DNA of 64,000 nt, from NCBI RefSeq assembly GCF_916619195.1, contig NZ_CAKAKL010000006.1:248001-312000 (forward strand). The letters are read 5' to 3'. The notes below the pieces were generated by a model. It saw only the letters and a program-made list of their open reading frames with translations, had not been told where the DNA came from and made no database searches. Positions 2,663 to 31,469 of this stretch are shown one piece after another. The stretch comes from Inquilinus sp. Marseille-Q2685. Lineage in GTDB: Bacteria > Pseudomonadota > Alphaproteobacteria > DSM-16000 > Inquilinaceae. Within the stretch, counting starts at the first letter, position 1, and every line of letters begins with the position of its first letter. The position numbers and the translations under genes were made by a program.

Positions 2663-5208
2663 GCTCCCGCGACGCCGCAGGCGGCGCAACCAGCATGCAT
2701 AACGCCGCCCGCCTGGCCCGGCGCGAGCTGCGCGGCGGCCTGAAGGGCTTCCGCATCTTCCTGGCCTGCCTGGCGCTGGGCGTCGGGGCGATCGCCGCGG
2801 TGCAGTCGGTCGCCGACGGCATCCGCCGCAGCATCGCCGAGGACGGCCAGGCGATCCTGGGCGGCGACATCGAGCTGCACCGCCTGTACCAGCCGGCGAC
2901 GGCGGAGGAGCGGGCGCAGTTCGAAGCCGCCGGCCGGGTGTCGGAGGTGGTCGAGACCCGCGGCATGGCCCGCAATCCGCAGGACGAGGCGACGACGCTG
3001 GTCGAGTTGAAGGCCGTGGACGGCGCCTATCCGCTGTACGGACGGATGGAGCTGGAGGGCGGCGGCGACCTGCAGGCGGCCCTGGCGCAGCGCGACGGCG
3101 CCTGGGGCGCCGTGGCCGACCCGGAGGTGGCGGCGCGGCTGGGCCTGTCGGCCGGCGGCCGGATCGCGGTCGGCGACGCGGTGCTGCAGCTGCGCGGCAC
3201 CATCGCACGGGAGCCGGACAAGGCCGGCAGCGGCCTGGCCATCGGGCCGCGGCTGATGATCGCCCGGGGCGCGCTGGACGCCAGCGGCCTGATCCAGCCC
3301 GGATCGATGCTGACCTGGGACTATCGCCTGGCGCTGCCGGACGGCAGCGACACGCGCGCGGTCGCCGAGGACCTCAAGGCACGCACCGCGGACGCCAACT
3401 GGCGGGTGCGCGACGACCGCGACGCGGCGCCGTCGCTGCGCCGCACCATCGACCAGCTGACCATGTACCTGACCCTGGTCGGGCTGACCGCGCTGCTGGT
3501 CGGCGGCGCCGGGGTGGGCAACGCGGTGCGCGCCTGGCTGGACGCGCGGCTGGCCACCATCGCCACGCTGAAGTGCCTGGGCGCGCCCGGGCGGCTGATC
3601 TTCCAGACCTATCTGCTGCAGGTGCTGGTGCTGTCCGGCCTCGGCATCGCCATCGGCCTCGCGATCGGCGCCGCGGCACCGTCGGCGGTCGCCGCGCTGA
3701 TCCAGGGGCTGCTGCCCGTCGAGGCGCGGATCGGGGTCTATCCCGGCGCGCTGCTGCTGGCCTCGGGATTCGGCCTGCTGACGTCCCTGACCTTCTCGCT
3801 GTGGCCGCTGGCCCGCGCCGCCCGCATTCCGGCCGCGGCGCTGTTCCGCGACCGGGTGGCGCCGCGCCACGCCCGGCCGGCGCCGCGCTTCATCGCCATC
3901 ACCGGCCTGTGCGCCGCCGCCCTGGCCGGCCTGGCCGTCGCCACCGCAGCGGACCCGAAGCTGGCCGCGATCTTCGTCGGCGGCGCCGTCGCCGCCATCC
4001 TGCTGTTCACCGGCACCGCGCTGGGCGTCATGGCGCTGTCGCGCCGCGCCCCGCGGCCGCGCCGGCCGGGGCTGCGGCTGGCGCTGGCCAACCTGCACCG
4101 GCCGGGCGCGCCGACGCCGCAGATCGTGCTGTCGCTCGGGCTCGGCCTGACCGTGCTGGCGGCGATCGCCCTGATCCAGGGCAACATGGACCGGCAGATC
4201 CGCGACACCCTGCCCGACCAGGCGCCGTCCTTCTTCTTCGTCGACGTCCAGAAATCCCAGAAGGACCAGTTCGACGCCCTGATCCACAATACGCCGGGCG
4301 CCGCCGACCTGGCCGAGGTGCCGAGCCTGCGCGGCCGCATCGCGGCGGTGAACGGCGTGCCGGCCGACAAGGCGGTGGTCGACCCCAGCAAATCGAACTG
4401 GCTGCGCGGCGACCGCGGCGTCACCTACGCCGCCGCGATGCCGCCGAAGGACAGGCTGCTGCAGGGCCAGTGGTGGCCGGCCGACTACGACGGGCCGCCG
4501 AAGATCTCGGTCTACAAGGACATCGCCGAGGCTTTCGGGCTGAAGCCGGGCGACCGGATGACGATCAACGTGCTGGGCCGCGACATCGAGGCCGAGGTCG
4601 CCAGCATCCGCGACATCGACTGGAGCACGCTGGGCATCAACTTCACCCTGATCATGTCGCCGAAGCCGCTGTCGGCCGCGCCGCACACCTGGCTGGCCAC
4701 GGTGCGGGTGCCGGCGGCCGGGGAGCTGGCGCTGCAGAAGGCGGTGACCGAGGCCTTCCCCAACGTCACCACGGTGCGCCTGAGGGACGCGCTGGAGACG
4801 GTGAACGCCCTTCTGTCCCAGATCGGCGCGGCGGTGCGGTCGACCGCCGGCGTCACCCTCCTGGCCGGCGCTCTGGTGCTGGCCGGGGCCGTGGTGGCGG
4901 GCCACCGTCGCCGGATCTACGACGCCGTGGTGCTGAAGGTGCTGGGCGCCACCCGCGGCGACGTGCTGCGCGCCTTCCTGATCGAATACGGCCTCCTGGG
5001 CCTGCTGACCGCCGTGATCGCCTGCGCGCTGGGCAGCGTCGCCGCCTGGGCCGTGCTGACCTTCGTGATGGAGATCGACTGGGCCTTCCTGCCCCTCACC
5101 CTCCTGGGCACCGCGGCGCTGTGCGTCGCCATCACCCTGGGCTTCGGCTTCCTCGGCACCTGGGTGGCGCTGGGCCAGAAGGCGGCGCCGCTGCTGCGGA
5201 ACGAATAG
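2659..5208 (+). CDS. ybbP: FtsX-like ABC permease, YbbP family
   Basis: Inner-membrane permease of 849 residues with the type VII (MacB-like) layout duplicated. There is an N-terminal helix (about 20-40), a large periplasmic part, an FtsX core of three helices near residues 270-390, a second helix pair and soluble domain, and a second FtsX core near 720-845. The C-terminus has GHRRRIYDAVVLKVLGATRGDVLRAF in two stretches, the cytosolic coupling segment typical of these permeases. It starts inside the stop of the ATPase gene. An alternative start is ATG 2695 (MHNAARLARRELRGG). It probably acts with the divergent TesA-like enzyme in envelope lipid handling; this is inferred from conserved neighbourhood only. 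Confidence 0.88.
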
Positions 5209-21491: not shown

Positions 21492-23093
21492 TCAAGCCCC
21501 GCCCGTCACCGCCTGCCAGTCCAGCCCGAAGCGGGCGAGGTATTTGCGCAGGCGGTCGGCGTCGTTCGCGCTGGTCTTCTGCGCCCGTGACGCGGCGAAC
21601 AGCGTCCGCCCCGCGGCGCTGAGCGAGCTGCTGGTCCGGCACACGCCCACCACCGCGGCCAGCTGGGCCCGGTCAAACAGGTCGATCCGCGCCAGCCGCT
21701 CCGGCCCCAAGAGCCCGGCCAGCAGCGCCTCGCCCGCATCCTCGCCGGCGCGCGACCAGATGCGCTTCAGCCGCTCGATCTCCTCTTCCACCACCGCCTC
21801 GTTGATCCGGCCGGAGGGGGCGAAGGTGGCCATCCGGGTGATCGAGGCGCCGAGGTCGCGGAAATTGGCGCTCCACACCGCCTCGGGCGAGGTGGCGAAG
21901 GCCAGATAGCGGTCCCGCGCCTCGCGGTTGAAGGTGATCTGCACCCCTTCCCGCTCGGCATGGCGGCGCAGCTCGAACTCCAGGTTCGGTTCGATGTCCT
22001 CGCGCCGGTCGCGCAGCCCCGGCAGGGTGAAGGTCCACAAGTTCAGCCGCGCCAGCAGGTCCTCGCGGAACCGGCCGCGGGCGACGTCGACCGAGAGGTC
22101 GCGATTGGTGCCGGCGATCAGCTGGAAATCGCTCGCCACCTCCCTGTCCGCGCCGACCGGCGGGAACCGCTTCTCCTCCACCGCGCGCAGGATCATCGCC
22201 TGCTCGTCGGCGCCGAGCTCGCCGATCTCGTCGAGGAACAGGATGCCGCGATCGGCCGAGCGCAGCAGCCCGGCGCGGTCCTGCAGCGCACCGGTGAAAG
22301 CGCCCTTCACATGGCCGAACAGGGCCGACATGGCGCCGTCGCCGCGCAGCGTGGCGCAGTTGACCTCGACGAACGGCCCTTCGACCTGGTGCCGCGCCTT
22401 TTTCAGATCGTAGATCCGCCGCGCCAGCTGCGACTTGCCGGCCCCGGTCGGGCCGATCAGCAGCAAGGGCGCCTTCGACCGGATCGCCACCTGCTCGATC
22501 TGGTCGATCATGCGATTGAAGGCGGCGTTGCGGGTGGCGATGCCGGATTTCAGGAAGGACGCCGCCTCCTCCCGCTCCGCCTCGAAGCGGGTGGCGATGC
22601 GGTCGTAGCGCGACAGGTCCAGGTCGATGACGTCGTAGCCGCCGGGATGGCCCGCCTCCCACCGCTTCGGCGGGGTCAGCTGCAGCAGGCGCGCCGGCAG
22701 GTAGTGCGCCTCGGTCAGCAGGAACCAGCAGATCTGGATCACATGCGTGCCGGTGGTGATGTTGACCAGGTACTCCTCGTCCTCCGTATCGAAGTCGTAG
22801 GCGCGGGCGAAATCCAGCATCGCCGCGAACACCTCCTGGAAGTCCCAGGCGTTGCGCAGGTTCATCAGGTTGAAGCGGACCACCGTGTCCGGCGATACGG
22901 CCTGGATGTCGCCGGCGACGCGCTTGGCCAGCGCGGCGGAATGGGTGTCGTGGATCAGCTCCAGCCGATCCACCAGCATGTCCTCGTGCTGGCACAGCGC
23001 CACGGTGGGCCGCCACCGCTCCCACCGGCTGTCCAGCTTGCCGGCATCCATGGTGGTGCCGATGAAGCCGATGACCACCCGTCGCTTCGGCAT
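21492..23093 (-). CDS. rtcR: sigma-54-dependent activator of RNA repair, RtcR
   Basis: 533 residues in three parts. An N-terminal CARF-like sensor spans about 1-180 (VVIGFIGTTMDAG, EEYLVNITTGTHVIQICWF in pieces). An AAA+ domain carries Walker A GPTGAGKS (214-221), the sigma-54 contact loop GAFTGA (264-269) and Walker B LFLDEIGE. A C-terminal helix-turn-helix lies near 470-520. It is divergent from rsr and activates the operon when it senses an RNA-derived ligand; in Salmonella damaged tRNA pieces have been implicated. Its ribosome-binding site AGGATA overlaps the first putative RtcR site. Confidence 0.93.
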   Translation of the reverse strand: MPKRRVVIGFIGTTMDAGKLDSRWERWRPTVALCQHEDMLVDRLELIHDTHSAALAKRVAGDIQAVSPDTVVRFNLMNLRNAWDFQEVFAAMLDFARAYDFDTEDEEYLVNITTGTHVIQICWFLLTEAHYLPARLLQLTPPKRWEAGHPGGYDVIDLDLSRYDRIATRFEAEREEAASFLKSGIATRNAAFNRMIDQIEQVAIRSKAPLLLIGPTGAGKSQLARRIYDLKKARHQVEGPFVEVNCATLRGDGAMSALFGHVKGAFTGALQDRAGLLRSADRGILFLDEIGELGADEQAMILRAVEEKRFPPVGADREVASDFQLIAGTNRDLSVDVARGRFREDLLARLNLWTFTLPGLRDRREDIEPNLEFELRRHAEREGVQITFNREARDRYLAFATSPEAVWSANFRDLGASITRMATFAPSGRINEAVVEEEIERLKRIWSRAGEDAGEALLAGLLGPERLARIDLFDRAQLAAVVGVCRTSSSLSAAGRTLFAASRAQKTSANDADRLRKYLARFGLDWQAVTGGA

Positions 23094-23243: not shown

Positions 23244-23260
23244 TTGGCACGCGCTTCGCT
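23244..23260 (+). promoter_or_regulatory. sigma-54 promoter of the rsr-Y RNA-rtcBA operon
   Basis: TTGGCAC-N5-TCGCT: GG at 23246-23247 and GC at 23258-23259 are separated by exactly 10 bases, as in -24/-12 promoters (TGGCAC-N5-TTGCA). Transcription would begin near 23271, about 23 bases before the rsr start. The divergent rtcR gene encodes the matching activator. Confidence 0.75.
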
Positions 23261-23293: not shown

Positions 23294-24853
23294 ATGGCAA
23301 ACAAGTCCGTGTTTGCTTCGCTGATGGGAAGGCTGCTTCCGCGCAGCGACGCCGTGAACCACGAGGGGGCCCAGGCCTACGCCCTGACGCCGCGCCACGC
23401 GCTGGCGCAGCTGGCGGCGACCGGGACGCTCCACCGGACGTTCTACGCCGATGCGCGGGAGCAGCTGGACCAGGTGCTCGCCCTCGCCCGCGAGGTCGAG
23501 CCCGGTTTCATCGCCCGCACCGCGGTCCATGCCCGCGAGCGGGGGCACATGAAGGACATGCCGGCTTTGCTGGTCGCCCTTCTGTCCACCCTCGAGACGC
23601 CCGATTTCGCGCCGGCCTTCCGGCGCATGGTCGACAACGGCCGCATGCTGCGCAGCTTCGTGCAGATCATGCGGTCGGGCGCCGTGGGGCGGAAGTCGCT
23701 GGGCACCCGGCCGAAGCGGCTGGTGCAGGCATGGCTGGAGCAGGCCTCGGACATCGAGATCATGCGGGCGGCGGTGGGGCAGGATCCCTCGCTGGCCGAC
23801 GTGGTCAAGATGGTGCACCCGAAGCCGGCGGATCCGTCGCGCCAGGCGCTGTATGGCTGGCTGATCGGCCGGCCGTACGACGCCACGGCGCTGCCGGAGG
23901 TGGTGCGGGCCTTCGAGGCCTTCAAGCGCGACCCGTCGGCGCCCGTGCCGGACGTGCCCTTCCAGATGCTGACGGCGCTGCCGCTGACGCGGGAGCACTG
24001 GGCGGCGATCGGGGAGAAGGCCGGCTGGCACATGCTGCGGATGAACCTGAACACCTTCGCGCGCCACGGCGTGTTCGAGGTGGACGGGTTCGCCGAGCGG
24101 GTGGCGGCCCGGCTGCGCGACCCGGAGGCGATCCGGCGGGCCCGGGTGTTCCCGTACCAGCTGATGGCGGCGTACGCCATGGCGGGGGCGGGGGTGCCGG
24201 CGGTGGTGCGCGAGGCGCTGCAGGACGCGATGGAGGTCGCGGTCGGCAACGTCCCGGCGCTGCCGGGTCGGGTGGTCGTCTGCCCCGACGTGTCGGGGTC
24301 GATGGGCTCCCCGGTCACCGGCCACCGGGCCGGCGGGACGACTTCGGTGCGCTGCATCGACGTCGCCGCGCTGGTGGCGGCGGCGGTGCTGCGGGCCAAC
24401 CGGTCGGCCAGGGTCATCCCGTTCGAGCAGAGGGTGGTCGAGATCGACCTCAATCCGCGCGATTCGGTGATGACCAATGCGCGGAAGCTGGCCGCCATCG
24501 GCGGCGGCGGCACCAACTGCTCGGCCCCGGTCGAGCGGCTGGTGGCGGAGCGCGCCGCGGTCGACCTCGTCGTCTTCGTCTCGGACAACCAGTCCTGGGT
24601 CGATGCGGCGAAGCACCCGCACCAGGGCACCGGGCTGATGCAGGCCTGGGCCCGGCTGAAGGAGCGCAATCCGGAGGCCAGGCTGGTCTGCATCGACATC
24701 CAGCCCTACGCCACGACGCAGGCGCAGGAGCGGGCGGACATCCTCAACGTCGGGGGCTTCTCCGACGCGGTGTTCGACGCGATCGCCGCCTTCGCCGAAG
24801 CCGGGTCGGGCGCGGACCGCTGGGTCGACGAGATCGAGCGGATCGTGCTGTGA
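23294..24853 (+). CDS. rsr: Rsr, bacterial Ro60/TROVE-domain RNA-binding protein
   Basis: 519 residues. An N-terminal TROVE ring of HEAT-like repeats (about 15-310) is followed by a von Willebrand A domain whose metal site DVSGS is at 332-336. Ro rings bind misfolded RNA ends in the central hole and Y RNA on the outer face; with PNPase they form an RNA-degrading machine. ATG 23294 is chosen because AAGGA is 8 bases upstream; ATG 23285 overlaps that site. Eight candidate Y RNAs follow at once, which strongly supports the assignment. Confidence 0.94.
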   Translation: MANKSVFASLMGRLLPRSDAVNHEGAQAYALTPRHALAQLAATGTLHRTFYADAREQLDQVLALAREVEPGFIARTAVHARERGHMKDMPALLVALLSTLETPDFAPAFRRMVDNGRMLRSFVQIMRSGAVGRKSLGTRPKRLVQAWLEQASDIEIMRAAVGQDPSLADVVKMVHPKPADPSRQALYGWLIGRPYDATALPEVVRAFEAFKRDPSAPVPDVPFQMLTALPLTREHWAAIGEKAGWHMLRMNLNTFARHGVFEVDGFAERVAARLRDPEAIRRARVFPYQLMAAYAMAGAGVPAVVREALQDAMEVAVGNVPALPGRVVVCPDVSGSMGSPVTGHRAGGTTSVRCIDVAALVAAAVLRANRSARVIPFEQRVVEIDLNPRDSVMTNARKLAAIGGGGTNCSAPVERLVAERAAVDLVVFVSDNQSWVDAAKHPHQGTGLMQAWARLKERNPEARLVCIDIQPYATTQAQERADILNVGGFSDAVFDAIAAFAEAGSGADRWVDEIERIVL

Positions 24854-24897
24854 CGGATCGGGGCCGGGCGTCCGGGAGACCGGGCGCCCGGTCCCGG

Positions 24898-25008
24898 CCG
24901 GGAGGAATGCAGTCGGGACTCCATCGGACCCCGCAGGCGGGCCGGGCAACCGGCTGCGCACGGGGCGCCGCTTCGGCGGCGGTCGTCCCGGCACCCTCGT
25001 CCTCCCGG
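24898..25008 (+). ncRNA. candidate Y RNA, unit 1
   Basis: The ends form a perfect 9-bp stem (24898-24906 with 25000-25008). The Ro-binding strands read GAGGAATG and CCTCGTCCTC; the usual GNCGAA/GUCGNC pair is kept as a compensated swap. An inner helix GTCGGGAC/GTCCCGGC (24912-24919, 24985-24992) follows. Two capped hairpins fill the body: GCCGG-GCAA-CCGGC (24941-24954) and CGCCGC-TTCG-GCGGCG (24966-24981). No tRNA-like arms are seen. It begins 45 bases after the rsr stop. Confidence 0.6.
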
Positions 25009-25024
25009 TTGGAGATCCGAGAAT

Positions 25025-25134
25025 CATGGCGAATGCCGTGCGGGAGTACATCCACCCCCTGAGCGTGGCGTGCCGGAAACACGCCTCCGACCCCGTGTCG
25101 GAAGCTCGCCTCCTGCACACCACTCGTCGCCATG
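25025..25134 (+). ncRNA. candidate Y RNA, unit 2
   Basis: Terminal stem CATGGCGA/TCGCCATG (25025-25032, 25127-25134) carries GGCGAATG and ACTCGTCGCC. The inner helix GTGCGGGAG/CTCCTGCAC has one G-U (25038-25046, 25110-25118). Two small hairpins are GGCGTG/CACGCC (25067-25085) and TCCGAC/GTCGGA (25086-25102). AGTACAT after the inner helix is shared with unit 4 and nearly with unit 3. No T-arm is visible. Confidence 0.6.
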
Positions 25135-25148
25135 GCCGGAGGATCCCT

Positions 25149-25264
25149 CCGGCCGGCCGCCGGCCCGGCGAATGCCGCGGAGAGTACACTCGCACCGACC
25201 AGCAACGTACCCCGGTGCGGGGCTTCTCTCCCGACCCTTCGTCGCCGGGCCGGCGGCCGGCCGG
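25149..25264 (+). ncRNA. candidate Y RNA, unit 3 (long terminal stem)
   Basis: A perfect 23-bp GC-rich terminal helix joins 25149-25171 to 25242-25264, the longest in the array. Ro-type strands GGCGAATG and CTTCGTCGCC lie at its inner end. The inner helix is GGAGAG/CTCTCC (25179-25184, 25226-25231). A hairpin CGCACCG/CGGTGCG (25191-25219) fills the body. A competing hairpin GGCCGGAGG/CCTCCGGCC (25134-25154) overlaps its 5' edge and the end of unit 2. Confidence 0.6.
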
Positions 25265-25279
25265 TGGGGACGGCCGGAA

Positions 25280-25376
25280 GCCGGGGGGAATGCCGTCGGG
25301 AGTACATTGAAAACCTGCCGTCAAAAGCAGGCGCCGCTTCGGCGGCGGTCGTCCCGACATCCCTCGTTCCCCCGGC
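25280..25376 (+). ncRNA. candidate Y RNA, unit 4
   Basis: Shortest unit, 97 bases. Terminal stem 25280-25289 with 25367-25376 (10 bp, one G-U); strands GGGGAATG and CCTCGTTCCC are a covarying version of the motif. The inner helix GTCGGGA/TCCCGAC (25295-25301, 25352-25358) and a hairpin CCTGC/GCAGG (25314-25331) follow. Positions 25330-25356 are identical to 24964-24990 of unit 1, including the TTCG-capped hairpin. Confidence 0.6.
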
Positions 25377-25386
25377 CGATCGTTTC

Positions 25387-25503
25387 GTGACGAATGCCGG
25401 TGGAACTCCATGTAGGCGGGTTCGACTCCCGCCGGGTCCGGTTTCCATCACCGGCCCCGTCGCTCAGCGGTCGAGCAATGGTTTCGCCACCCCTCGTCGT
25501 CAC
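25387..25503 (+). ncRNA. candidate Y RNA with tRNA-like domain, unit 5
   Basis: Terminal stem GTGACGA/TCGTCAC (25387-25393, 25497-25503) with the full motif GACGAATG and CCTCGTCGTC. Inner helix GGTGG/CCACC. The body is a permuted tRNA: T-arm GCGGG-TTCGACT-CCCGC (25416-25432), acceptor strands CGGGTCC (25433-25439) and GGCCCCG (25453-25459) joined by a loop, then a D-arm GCTC-AGCGGTC-GAGC (25462-25476). One mismatch lies in the acceptor stem. There is no anticodon arm; the Ro stem takes its place, as in YrlA-type Y RNAs. Confidence 0.72.
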
Positions 25504-25512
25504 ACCCCTCGC

Positions 25513-25639
25513 GCGGCGAATGCCCGCGGGAGTCCATTGGTCAGAGCACCTGCCGAAAGGCAGGAGGTGGCAGTTCGAATCCGCCCCGGGCCGCGAGGTC
25601 CGGTAGCTCAGGAAAGCTCTCGCAAACCCTTGTCGCCGC
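25513..25639 (+). ncRNA. candidate Y RNA with tRNA-like domain, unit 6
   Basis: Terminal stem GCGGCGA/TCGCCGC (25513-25519, 25633-25639); strands GGCGAATG and CCTTGTCGCC match the Ro-binding pattern fully. Inner helix GCGGGAG/CTCTCGC (25526-25532, 25617-25623). The body holds a hairpin CCTGCC-GAAA-GGCAGG (25549-25564), T-arm GGCAG-TTCGAAT-CCGCC (25569-25585), a 7-bp acceptor CCGGGCC-GCGA-GGTCCGG (25586-25603) and TA-GCTC of a D-arm, all at tRNA spacing. The hairpin before the T-arm resembles an anticodon arm closed by a tetraloop. Confidence 0.7.
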
Positions 25640-25670
25640 ACCCGCGCAACCTTTGAAAGGACCGTAGACC

Positions 25671-25783
25671 GCAGCGAATGCCGGGCGGGATTACCTGGGA
25701 GCGGCGCAAGCCGTGAGGTTCGAAGCCTCGCCCGCATCGCGGTCCGCCGCGGCGCGGGAGATCCCGCCATCCCTTGTCGCTGC
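25671..25783 (+). ncRNA. candidate Y RNA with reduced tRNA-like domain, unit 7
   Basis: Terminal stem GCAGCGA/TCGCTGC (25671-25677, 25777-25783), with AGCGAATG and CCTTGTCGCT; an A-U pair replaces the usual outer G-C. Inner helix GGCGGGAT/ATCCCGCC (25684-25691, 25761-25768). The T-arm TGAGG-TTCGAAG-CCTCG (25714-25730) is followed by an acceptor-like hairpin, CCCGC (25731-25735) with GCGGG (25754-25758), capped by CGCGG-TCCG-CCGCG. No D-arm can be found, so this is a partial mimic. Confidence 0.65.
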
Positions 25784-25790
25784 ACCCGAA

Positions 25791-25957
25791 CGCATGGCGA
25801 ATGCCGATGGAACTCCATGGATTGTCACTCCCCTGGTCGCGGGTTCGAGTCCCGCCGGATCTGTCTTCGGACGGGTCCGTAGCTCAGCGGTAGAGCAGGA
25901 GCCCGACCGGGCCTCGGCCCGGACAGGCAAGGTTTCATCAACCCTCGTCCCCATGCG
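25791..25957 (+). ncRNA. candidate Y RNA with complete tRNA-like domain, unit 8
   Basis: Longest unit, 167 bases, ending 26 bases before rtcB. Terminal stem 25791-25800 with 25948-25957 (one C-C mismatch); strands GGCGAATG and CCTCGTCCCC. Inner helix GATGGAA/TTTCATC. T-arm GCGGG-TTCGAGT-CCCGC (25839-25855), acceptor stem CGGATCTGTC-TTCG-GACGGGTCCG (25856-25879), TA, then D-arm GCTC-AGCGGTA-GAGC (25882-25896) are at exact tRNA spacing. The acceptor ends are joined by a TTCG loop, so no CCA end could form. A GC hairpin follows the D-arm. Confidence 0.74.
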
Positions 25958-25983
25958 TCCTTCTGGACTCAAGGATCACCATC

Positions 25984-27207
25984 ATGGACCGGACCTACGA
26001 CCTTCTCACCGAAAGCTTCGCCCCGGCGCGCGACACGCGCGCCAGGCCGGTCAAGATGTGGACCCGCGGCGTGCCGGTCGATGACGGCTCGCGCCAGCAG
26101 CTGCTGAACACCGCAACGCTGCCCTTCATCCACAAGCATGTCGCGGCGATGCCGGACGTGCACTACGGCAAGGGCGCGACCATCGGCTCGGTGATCCCGA
26201 CCCGCGGGGCGATCATCCCGGCGGCGGTCGGCGTCGACATCGGCTGCGGCATGTGCGCGGTGCGCACGACGCTGACCAGCCACCAGCTGCCGGACAGCCT
26301 GTCCGGGCTGCGCTCCGCGCTCGAGGCGGCGATCCCGGTCGGGATGGCCGATCACGGGCAGGATGTCCCGCGCGCGGCGGAGAACGCCTGGTACTCGTCG
26401 TTCAAGCAGCGCTACGACGCGCTGCAGCACAAGTACCCGGCGATCTCCACCAAGCACTCGCCGGCGCGGCAGATCGGCACGCTGGGCGGCGGCAACCACT
26501 TCATCGAGGTCTGCCTGGACCAGGACGACCGCGTCTGGGTGATGCTGCATTCCGGGTCGCGCGGGGTGGGCAACCGCATCGGCAGCTTCTTCATCGCCGC
26601 GGCGCGCCGCGAGATGGAGCGGCAGTTCATCCACCTGCCGGACCGGGACCTGGCCTATCTGGCCGAGGGCTCGGACCTGTTCGTCGACTACATGGACGCG
26701 GTCGGCTGGGCGCAGGACTACGCCCGCGCCAACCGGGACGTGATGCTGAAGCAGGCGCTGGCGGCGATGGCCGCCGCCTTCACCGATTTCGGCGTCACCG
26801 ACGAGGCGATCAACTGCCACCACAACTACGTGGAGCGGGAGCATCACTTCGGCGAGAGCGTCTGGGTCACCCGCAAGGGCGCCGTGCGCGCCCGCGAGGG
26901 CGACCTGGGCATCATCCCGGGATCGATGGGGGCGCGGTCCTTCATCGTCCGCGGCAAGGGCAACCCCGACAGCTTCTGCTCCTGCTCCCACGGGGCCGGG
27001 CGGGTGATGTCGCGGACCGAGGCCAAGCGGCGGTTCACAGTCGCCGACCATGCAGCCGCCACCGCGGGGATCGAGTGCCGGAAGGACGAGGGCGTCATCG
27101 ACGAGACACCCAAGGCCTACAAGGACATCGACGCCGTGATGGCCGCCCAGGCGGATCTGGTGGAGGTGGTGCACACGCTGCGCCAGATCGTCTGCGTCAA
27201 GGGATAG
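25984..27207 (+). CDS. rtcB: RNA-splicing ligase RtcB
   Basis: 407-residue GTP- and Mn-dependent ligase that joins a 2',3'-cyclic phosphate or 3'-phosphate RNA end to a 5'-OH. Metal and guanylation residues are visible: D85 and C88 (GVDIGCGMC), H172 (GGGNHF), H189 (MLHSGSRG), His in INCHHNYV and the guanylated H336 (SCSHGAGR). Length matches E. coli RtcB. AAGGA stands 8 bases before the ATG. Substrates are probably tRNA or rRNA cut by ribotoxins. The array of Y RNAs separates it from rsr in one transcription unit. Confidence 0.96.
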   Translation: MDRTYDLLTESFAPARDTRARPVKMWTRGVPVDDGSRQQLLNTATLPFIHKHVAAMPDVHYGKGATIGSVIPTRGAIIPAAVGVDIGCGMCAVRTTLTSHQLPDSLSGLRSALEAAIPVGMADHGQDVPRAAENAWYSSFKQRYDALQHKYPAISTKHSPARQIGTLGGGNHFIEVCLDQDDRVWVMLHSGSRGVGNRIGSFFIAAARREMERQFIHLPDRDLAYLAEGSDLFVDYMDAVGWAQDYARANRDVMLKQALAAMAAAFTDFGVTDEAINCHHNYVEREHHFGESVWVTRKGAVRAREGDLGIIPGSMGARSFIVRGKGNPDSFCSCSHGAGRVMSRTEAKRRFTVADHAAATAGIECRKDEGVIDETPKAYKDIDAVMAAQADLVEVVHTLRQIVCVKG

Positions 27208-27295
27208 AGTGCCACGGGCCGCCGGTCCGGGCGGCCCGGACCGGCCGTCCGCCGTCGTCGTCTCGTGGTCCCAACAAGAAACGAAAGAAACGACC

Positions 27296-28336
27296 ATGAT
27301 CACGATCGACGGATCCCTGGGCGAGGGCGGGGGCCAGATCCTGCGCTCGGCCCTGACCCTGTCCCTGGCGACCGGGACCCCGTTCCGGATCGAGCGGATC
27401 CGGGCGGGCCGCGCCAAGCCGGGCCTGCTGCGCCAGCACCTCACGGCCGTGAGGGCGGCGGCCGCGATCGGCCGGGCCACGGTGACGGGGGCCGAGCTGG
27501 GCTCGACCGCGCTCGGCTTCGCGCCGGGGCCGGTCGTGGCCGGCGACTACGACTTCGCCATCGGCTCGGCCGGGGCGACGCTGCTGGTGCTGCAGACCGT
27601 GCTGCTGCCACTGGCCCTGGCGAGTGCCCCGTCGCGGCTGCGGCTGCAGGGCGGCACCCATGCCATGGGCGCGCCGAGCTTCGACTTCGCCGAGCGGGCC
27701 TTCCTGCCGCTGCTGCACCGCATGGGCTTCCACGCCCGGGCGGCGCTGCGCCGGCACGGCTTCCATCCGGCTGGCGGCGGCGTGATCGAGGTCGAGGTGA
27801 TGCCGCGCGGCAAGCCGGCGCCGCTGGTGCTGGAGCGGCGCGGCGCCCTGCTGTCGCGGCAGGTGGAGGCGGTGGTCACCCACCTGCCGCTGCACATCGC
27901 GGCGCGGGAGACGGCGGCCTTCGCCAAGGCCCTGCGCTGGCGGGACGACACGGTCGTTCCCGGCCGCGCGGTCGCCGCGGACGGGCCGGGCAACTGCCTG
28001 ACCGTGACGGTGGCGCATGAGCACGCGACCGAGGTCTTCACCGGCCATGGCCAGCCCGGCCTGCCGGCGGAGGATATCGCGGCCGCGACGGCCAAGGCGG
28101 TGCGGCTGTTCCTCGCCAGCCGCGCCCCGGTCGGCCCGCATCTGGCGGACCAGCTGCTGCTGCCCATGGCGCTGGGCGCGGGCGGCCGCTTCGTCACGGT
28201 CGCGCCGACGCCGCACACCCTGACCAACATCGCGGTGATCGAGGCCTTCCTCGGTCCCCGGATCGCGGTGACCCGCCACACCGGCCGCAGCGTGCTGGTC
28301 AAGGTGGCGGGACGACAGAGCAAGGAGACGGCATGA
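27296..28336 (+). CDS. rtcA: RNA 3'-terminal phosphate cyclase RtcA
   Basis: 346-residue cyclase that uses ATP to turn a 3'-phosphate (or 2'-phosphate) RNA end into the 2',3'-cyclic form, which RtcB can use. The opening ITIDGSLGEGGGQILRSALTLS, the RAGRAKPGLLRQHLTA block and the adenylated His (H307 in PHTLTN, matching E. coli H309) are present. The start ATG 27296 lies 88 bases after rtcB. It overlaps the following AAA+ gene by 4 bases (ATGA), so the operon continues. Confidence 0.95.
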   Translation: MITIDGSLGEGGGQILRSALTLSLATGTPFRIERIRAGRAKPGLLRQHLTAVRAAAAIGRATVTGAELGSTALGFAPGPVVAGDYDFAIGSAGATLLVLQTVLLPLALASAPSRLRLQGGTHAMGAPSFDFAERAFLPLLHRMGFHARAALRRHGFHPAGGGVIEVEVMPRGKPAPLVLERRGALLSRQVEAVVTHLPLHIAARETAAFAKALRWRDDTVVPGRAVAADGPGNCLTVTVAHEHATEVFTGHGQPGLPAEDIAAATAKAVRLFLASRAPVGPHLADQLLLPMALGAGGRFVTVAPTPHTLTNIAVIEAFLGPRIAVTRHTGRSVLVKVAGRQSKETA

Positions 28337-31261: not shown

Positions 31262-31319
31262 ACCGCCCGGCCGGTGCGCTTGACACCGGCCGCCCCGGCC
31301 TGCGAGCCTGGGCGCGGAA

Positions 31320-31400
31320 GTGACACGGGGTGCCCGGAAACGGGCTGAGATCATACCCGTCGAACCTGATCTGGGTCATGCCAGCGAAGGGAGCCGTCAC
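31320..31400 (+). promoter_or_regulatory. TPP riboswitch (THI element) upstream of thiE
   Basis: Aptamer core elements read in order: ACACGGGGTGCCC, GGGCTGAGATCATACCCGT, CGAACCTGATCTGGGTCATG and CCAGCGAAGGGA. The closing stem is GTGAC (31320-31324) with GTCAC (31396-31400). It lies 69 bases before the thiE start. No clear terminator follows, so control is probably at translation. A start at ATG 31404 would fall immediately after the aptamer. Confidence 0.95.
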
Positions 31401-31469
31401 GCGATGCCCGCCCGGGCCCCGATCCCTGAGGATCGATCGCCGACCGCCCTTCGCCGGAGGAGGAGCGGA

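Follow-up and report, generated by a model that had tools for sequence, protein, structure and literature searches.

What do the 1,130 bases between the gene for a Ro60-like protein (rsr, stop at position 24853) and the gene for an RNA ligase (rtcB, start at 25984) encode in Inquilinus sp. Marseille-Q2685, and what could such a stretch do within an operon devoted to RNA repair? The initial annotation of this DNA had resolved the gap into eight tandem Y RNA-like units, and had put forward the eight-member array as possibly new. We examined these claims within the window (i.e., the whole 64-kb stretch of DNA that was analysed, from whose first letter all positions are counted), and compared the locus with those of sister genomes, with other rsr loci and with an even sample of genomes.

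Genes and signals around the gap

The features of the locus are collected in Table 1. A profile built from nine relatives of the Rsr protein matched D. radiodurans Rsr (2nvo) at E 3.6e-34, together with 60-kDa Ro entries, and downstream of rtcA we found an AAA ATPase followed by a DUF2201/VWA protein (both by Pfam). A sigma-54-like site lies 24 bases 5′ of the start of rsr and is the single match in the window to what we take to be the sigma-54 consensus; given that 0.86 matches were expected by chance, it is the position alone that supports it as a candidate promoter. Within positions 24700–26100 we detected no sigma-70 promoter pattern and no plus-strand terminator pattern, and the idea that each unit has a separate promoter or terminator was rejected on these grounds. 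At gathering score, the only Rfam match in the window was a TPP riboswitch (31316–31410), which lies upstream of a frame that, from the look of its translation, is presumably thiamine phosphate synthase-like.

Table 1 Features of the rsr–rtcB locus, with positions in the window.
Feature	Position	Strand	Evidence and remarks
rtcR, sigma-54 activator of RNA-repair operons	21492..23093	-	PF06956 E 9.9e-81, and Sigma54_activat
Candidate sigma-54 promoter TGGCACGCGCTTCGCT	23245..23260	+	Upstream of rsr; 1 mismatch to the assumed consensus
rsr, Ro60-like protein, 522 aa	23285..24853	+	vWA_Ro60 E 1.6e-17; TROVE E 2.6e-5 over a short stretch
U1, putative Y RNA gene, hairpin-type effector	24899..25007	+	R1 33.0 bits, E 2.6e-8; fold; outer stem runs past these ends
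U2, putative Y RNA gene, two internal hairpins	25025..25134	+	R1 41.9 bits, E 4e-11; fold
U3, putative Y RNA gene, one-hairpin effector	25164..25249	+	R1 36.6 bits, E 1.9e-9; missing in two sister genomes
U4, putative Y RNA gene	25282..25374	+	R1 47.8 bits, E 5.2e-13; missing in two sister genomes
U5, putative YrlA-like Y RNA gene: T arm, acceptor, D arm, opened at anticodon stem	25386..25504	+	R1 80.1 bits, E 2.5e-23; RF02553 64.2 bits
U6, putative Y RNA gene, D-loop-opened tRNA class	25512..25640	+	R1 62.7 bits, E 9.1e-18; class covariation; own fold
U7, putative Y RNA gene: hairpin, T-arm-like hairpin, long acceptor-like hairpin	25670..25784	+	R1 48.9 bits, E 2.3e-13; RF02553 32.2 bits; fold
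U8, putative YrlA-like Y RNA gene with extra hairpin	25793..25955	+	R1 90.3 bits, E 1.4e-26; RF02553 45.7 bits; 1 outer-stem mismatch
rtcB, RNA ligase	25984..27207	+	PF01139 E 7.1e-133
rtcA, RNA 3′-phosphate cyclase	27209..28336, start approximate	+	PF01137 E 2.4e-72

Eight units with a Ro-type architecture

The array (24899–25955) adjoins rsr and so lies beside a Ro60/Rsr gene, a criterion of Y RNAs. All eight units are on the strand of rsr and rtcB and are separated by spacers of 7–32 nt, with 28 nt between the end of U8 and the start of rtcB; their coordinates refer to 8-nt outer arms, and several of the stems are longer than that. The Ro-binding part (i.e., an outer stem, an asymmetric bulge and a second stem) was found in all eight: the outer stem forms 7 or 8 of its 8 pairs, and the second helix, which the initial annotation had likewise placed in every unit, has at least 6 contiguous pairs. 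Two units deserve comment. The outer stem of U8 has one mismatch, a C-C opposition that is paired in both sister genomes, and U4 adopts the architecture only with a longer stem: as a lone 93-mer it is predicted to take another fold (outer-stem pair probabilities below 0.1), whereas with the longer flanking stem its predicted fold is of the Ro type, as in the other units.

At the level of letters the picture was more varied. The compensated stems described earlier (GAGGA/TCCTC in U1, AGCGA/TCGCT in U7 and GACGA/TCGTC in U5) are as stated. Both strands had also been said to fit GNCGAAN(0-1)G and CNUNGUCGNC, which we take to be the Ro-binding consensus of bacterial Y RNAs. This held for U3, U5 and U6 only; U2 and U8 have the 5′ letters and miss CNUNGUCGNC, and neither element is exact in U1, U4 and U7, the departures being mostly pairing-preserving. 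Similarly, AGTNCAT or ACTCCAT is present in six of the eight units and lacking in U3 and U7. The units are 66–86% identical over aligned columns, which suggests that most of them are no recent copies.

We assessed how unusual this arrangement is with a structural scanner, which requires an 8-position outer stem with 7 or more positions paired, terminated by GA and followed by A-N-G, together with a 3′ element and a second stem in which 5 or more pairs are contiguous. Under the strict rule we found 7 units in the gap vs. 3 in the remaining 62.9 kb of the plus strand and 8 on the whole minus strand, and under the relaxed rule 8 in the gap vs. 30 in the rest of the plus strand and 30 on the minus strand. 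Among 500 dinucleotide shuffles of the gap, the maximum was 1 under the strict rule (7 observed) and 2 under the relaxed rule (8 observed). Independently of the scanner's counts, a covariance model (R1) was built from 37 units of other organisms only (i.e., no Inquilinus), with pairs confined to the two Ro-proximal stems and training units picked by motif and position, not by experiment. In the 64-kb window the eight best R1 matches are the units themselves, with scores from 90.3 down to 33.0 bits and E between 1.4e-26 and 2.6e-8; the ninth match had an E of 0.94. Because the training units were chosen for stem pairing, a covariation count on the R1 training alignment is circular.

A covariance search with a published Y RNA family, proposed earlier as a check, gave matches in half of the array: at a relaxed threshold the Rfam YrlA model (RF02553) matched U5, U8, U7 (scores in Table 1) and U6 (28.4 bits) end to end, with E from 4.3e-14 to 9.6e-4. 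All four scores differ from those of accepted family members in lying below the gathering score of 69, and U1–U4 gave no YrlA match at E ≤ 5. Other origins of the gap were considered and rejected, namely dispersed repeats (apart from an orphan unit described below, only the eight units match R1 at E < 0.01 among the best 150 candidates in the genome), normal-order tRNA genes or pseudogenes (ARAGORN finds none in the gap, and RF00005 gives 22 bits on U6 against a cut-off of 29) and coding sequence (open frames cross the gap, yet there are many single-base indels between sister genomes).

Taken together, the structural scan, the shuffles and the covariance model confirmed that the 1.13-kb gap comprises eight tandem units with the predicted, Ro-binding architecture of bacterial Y RNAs. 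Their identity as Y RNAs, read here from sequence, is supported by the position between rsr and rtcB, the Ro-type stem in 8 of 8 units, the independent covariance model, covariation in relatives and the six-unit arrays of sister genomes.

Unit content of sister genomes

Closest to this genome are that of Inquilinus limosus DSM 16000, with an Rsr at 98%, and one that carries the label Mycobacterium sp. KBS0706 (Rsr 94%). The latter is placed in the same genus as Inquilinus sp. Marseille-Q2685, and its Mycobacterium label is probably wrong. Comparison of the syntenic gap, which had been suggested with the first reading, revealed matching arrays of six units in both, these being orthologues of U1, U2, U5, U6, U7 and U8; U3 and U4 are lacking from both as one block. 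U4 and U1 have a 33-nt stretch in common, at 94%. In two genomes of the same family (G008 and G009; loci L018 and L019) we observed divergent Ro-like proteins of about 30% identity with no R1 match adjoining. Each of these genomes has one weak R1 match on another contig, meaning that R1 may miss the Y RNAs of divergent Ro proteins.

Tandem arrays in other genomes

To place the array size in context, we counted full-length R1 matches (E ≤ 1e-3) at the 80 named rsr loci nearest to this Rsr, which are not a random sample and whose 340 matches include all 37 R1 training units. The median was 4 units per locus: 4 units occurred at 30 loci, 5 at 20, 6 at 9, 2 at 7, 3 at 6, and 0, 1, 7 and 9 units at 2 loci each. 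Partial-model matches, which are probably tRNA genes, were dropped from this count. A full-length match 1.8 kb upstream of rsr (L090:4117-4186) was also left out, and the upstream matches of L078 and L099 were kept; including the former gives a total of 341 and 3 units for L090. At least three contigs (L042, L059 and L060) end before rtcB, and one of the two zero-unit loci, L042, stops 228 bases after rsr. The nine-unit arrays belong to a Burkholderiales MAG (L056:7632-9141) and to Undibacterium sp. TS12 (L065:7632-9136), with five units in each of just 57–68 nt and weakest matches at E 4e-4 to 5e-4.

An even sample of 398 Pseudomonadota genomes (the one studied here included) contained 10 with Rsr at E ≤ 1e-50, and all 10 have at least three full-length R1 matches beside rsr (three or four each, with the best 8 candidates per genome scored). 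At least three of these genomes (G203, G057 and G265) are also in the locus set, and the G203 record supplied one R1 training unit. Among the matches listed for the other 388 genomes, a full-length R1 match at E ≤ 1e-4 was found in five (G296, G691, G481, G553 and G537), and the remaining matches listed for the 388 cover inner, tRNA-like model positions only. In both samples, then, tandem Y RNAs are the norm, with eight units in the upper tail. The suggestion that the number eight is itself new is thus unsupported: relatives commonly have 4–6 units, and nine occur at two loci. We also found that Rfam at gathering score detects 6 of the 63 model-supported units in ten loci, meaning that much of this RNA repertoire is unannotated. 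As a separate observation, four viral-classed contigs (L107, L108, L111 and L122) carry at least 6 full-length Y RNA matches each, up- or downstream of an Rsr gene.

Effector modules of several kinds

The effector modules of the array are of several kinds, one of which is a tRNA opened in its D-loop, a point that the initial annotation had missed. U1–U4 carry hairpin modules without clear tRNA features. U5 and U8 follow the order of YrlA, with a T arm first, then acceptor strands that a loop connects, and then a D arm (i.e., as in a tRNA opened at the anticodon stem). This order was found in these two units only, U6 being opened elsewhere and U7 being without a D arm, and because even the best RF02553 score of 64.2 is below the gathering score, we call U5 and U8 YrlA-like only. 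The motif rule that we used for effector classes is crude: single-letter departures led it to label U5 ‘T only’ and U6 ‘D only’, and both were reassigned by model alignment and fold.

In the module of U6, GGTCAGAGC, which resembles a D arm in its 3′ half, comes first. A GAAA-looped hairpin then occupies the anticodon position, and AGGT precedes a T arm and an acceptor-like hairpin; last comes GTAGCTCAG, which resembles the 5′ half of the D arm. All four tRNA arms are represented, with the tRNA opened in the D-loop, the anticodon loop shortened and the acceptor strands joined. The D-stem strands GAGC and GCTC are at opposite ends of the module and pair in the minimum-energy fold, and the Ro stem would therefore enter in the D-loop. 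The T stem has an A-C mismatch which is paired in both sister genomes, and it is because of this mismatch that the minimum-energy fold of U6 puts the T arm in another register.

We then asked how widespread this class is, using a covariance model (R2) of U6 and 10 relatives in which the acceptor hairpin is outside the counted structure. Over 89 sources, 20 units scored above 70 bits, 9 of them outside the training set. The 70-bit line is our own choice: D-loop-type units also occur below it (L047 at 66.0, L036 at 66.5 and 61.0, and L058 at 56.7 bits), and R2 scores other Y RNAs as well (U5 at 52.6 and U7 at 49.3 bits). In the 20-row alignment, which was fitted to the model structure and contains 11 R2 training rows, 96.4% of cells pair, 24 of the 29 pairs vary on both strands, and the covariation score reaches 0.534 vs. 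0.179 when shuffled and at most 0.100 when slid. An 11-row alignment made without the model gave 92.7% pairing, 17 of 29 double changes and a score of 0.431 vs. 0.183. The D-stems of the class include GAGC/GCTC, GCGC/GCGC, GAAC/GTTC and GAGT/GCTC, as well as GAGC/GCCC with one mismatch in I. limosus. Landmarks of tRNA, numbered in what we take to be the standard way, recur throughout: positions U8, A9, A14 and R15 and the GG before the 3′ D strand are each kept in 19 of the 20 rows, T55, C56, R57 and C61 of the T arm in all 20, and T54 and A58 in 18. The model anticodon loop measures 2–8 nt (4 nt in 14 of 20). The whole D-stem forms in 14 of the 20 single-sequence minimum-energy folds; it is therefore covariation and letters, as opposed to folds of individual sequences, that support the class.

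Most of the 20 members are proteobacterial: rows with a named source trace to alpha- and betaproteobacteria, and also to one MAG each of Verrucomicrobia and Acidobacteria and to one Phycisphaerales assembly. Half of the 10 Rsr genomes in the 398-genome sample have a unit with R2 above 80 bits. In four units of three of these genomes (two in G566, one each in G429 and G644), none knowingly used before, visual inspection revealed the strand order of the class, and for one of them the minimum-energy fold is a full cloverleaf. Versions with a long variable arm, a signature that we assume to be leucine-like, were found in L073, L084, L098, L094 and G579; the predicted minimum-energy folds give a cloverleaf with a variable arm in the first four and a partial one in G579.

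We regard as evenly poised the broader proposal that Rsr loci are modular arrays in which YrlA is accompanied by undescribed whole-tRNA mimics; these would be tethered to Ro via the D-loop, retain an anticodon arm with a trimmed loop and have joined acceptor strands (leucine-like versions with long variable arms included), such that a single Ro protein would present several faces of tRNA, each to another partner, when tRNA is damaged. Within the titles, abstract openings and passages covered by our literature search, none deals with Y RNA arrays of this size or with a D-loop-opened class; key papers of 2014 and 2018 lie outside that coverage. If true, full tRNA mimics tethered at the D-loop would give Ro RNAs a second mode of tRNA imitation.

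Relation to known systems and proposed role

The locus resembles rsr-yrlBA-rtcBA of Salmonella, which, in the excerpted accounts, also combines Rsr, Y RNAs between rsr and rtcB, RtcB, RtcA and a divergent RtcR; the Salmonella operon differs in having 2 Y RNAs (YrlA and YrlB) compared with 8 here. Excerpts of PMC8394870 describe a module of Salmonella YrlA that resembles the D, T and acceptor arms, the anticodon arm not being among the arms named there, whereas U6 keeps one and is tethered via the D-loop. According to a passage of PMC11472068, YrlA superposes on tRNA with a circular permutation. U6 has in common with this mimicry (PDB 6CU1; parts of PMC11472068 and PMC8394870) the tRNA fold and the permuted strand order; by contrast with 6CU1, the fold of U6 is predicted from sequence and the permutation point of U6 and its relatives lies in the D-loop, which is why the anticodon arm is kept. 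In D. radiodurans, the Y RNA tethers Rsr to PNPase, as an excerpt of PMC7790460 has it. Here, as in that complex (RYPER), a Ro-bound RNA would be expected to tether its partner through the effector module; unlike RYPER, the array offers a set of differing modules.

We lean towards the reading that the gap holds eight Y RNA genes working with the Rsr encoded upstream, and that the array supplies a single Ro protein with interchangeable handles when tRNA is damaged. The idea of one Ro protein with a set of different handles is drawn from the cited papers together with the anatomy of the units. As described in part of PMC7790460, tRNA fragments that carry a terminal 2′,3′-cyclic phosphate activate RtcR; in our proposal RtcR would sense broken tRNA and act at the sigma-54 promoter, the array would be co-transcribed with rsr and rtcBA, the array transcript would be cut into single RNAs, and Rsr would grip each of them by the common stem. 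The differing effector modules may then recruit or occupy differing tRNA-recognising partners, e.g., PNPase or other nucleases, or tRNA-modifying or repair enzymes (a passage of PMC8394870 reports modification of YrlA RNA by DusA and TruB). U5 and U8 would be tethered via the anticodon stem and U6 via the D-loop, U7 being partly tRNA-shaped. With joined acceptor strands and no normal anticodon loop, the tRNA-shaped modules should bind as tRNA without being charged or anticodon-cut.

Alternatively, the tRNA-shaped Y RNAs could be decoys which soak up anticodon nucleases or other tRNA-cutting enzymes, uncut, while RtcBA repairs the real tRNAs. This would agree with the strand order of U5, U6 and U8 (acceptor strands joined, normal anticodon loop missing), with the mostly short anticodon loop in the 20 rows of the D-loop class, and with a discussion passage of PMC7790460 in which the YrlA module is proposed as a competitive inhibitor of a tRNA nuclease. 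We nevertheless consider it unlikely, given that an enzyme reading the anticodon loop would have little to bind and that U1–U4 are not tRNA-like. It is more improbable still that the units are cis-acting structures of the rsr-rtcBA message, setting its stability or the Rsr:RtcB ratio, and not free RNAs: tight packing up to 28 nt before rtcB and the lack of a promoter pattern inside the gap fit such a role, but it would require neither the conservation of Ro-binding letters nor tRNA core letters, nor modules of several types. Moreover, an orphan unit exists elsewhere in the genome, and the Salmonella Y RNAs of this operon layout are named noncoding RNAs in the excerpted sources (PMC7790460 among them).

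The chances are similarly slight that the extra copies are mostly neutral tandem duplicates, with one or two functional Y RNAs. The presence or absence of U3 and U4 as a block among close relatives, the stretch common to U4 and U1, and the range from 0 to 9 units per locus (one of the two zeros being the truncated contig of L042) speak for this reading, whereas stem covariation, the distinct modules and a level of identity at which most units are not recent speak against it. Under the favoured reading of interchangeable handles, a common Ro stem with varied modules amounts to a natural domain-swap series for asking what Y RNAs recruit, situated in an operon for the sensing and repair of broken tRNA. 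In the portion of the literature covered, bacterial Y RNAs have been studied experimentally in a small number of species, each with one or two such RNAs.

An orphan unit beside a tRNA gene

Elsewhere in the genome we observed an orphan Y-RNA-like hairpin of 61 nt (G000:C1:1324195-1324255, i.e., L141:4196-4256; R1 35.7 bits, E 4.2e-7), which sits 41 nt 3′ of a tRNA-Tyr gene and is kept in three relatives. In one of these orphan-bearing relatives (G003, 93% complete) no rsr was detected. The stretch directly after the orphan, from GGCGGTGCAGGCAGG to CTGCACCGC (L141 ~4257-4340), gave no convincing Rfam match; it is near-invariant in four genomes and looks like another structured RNA.
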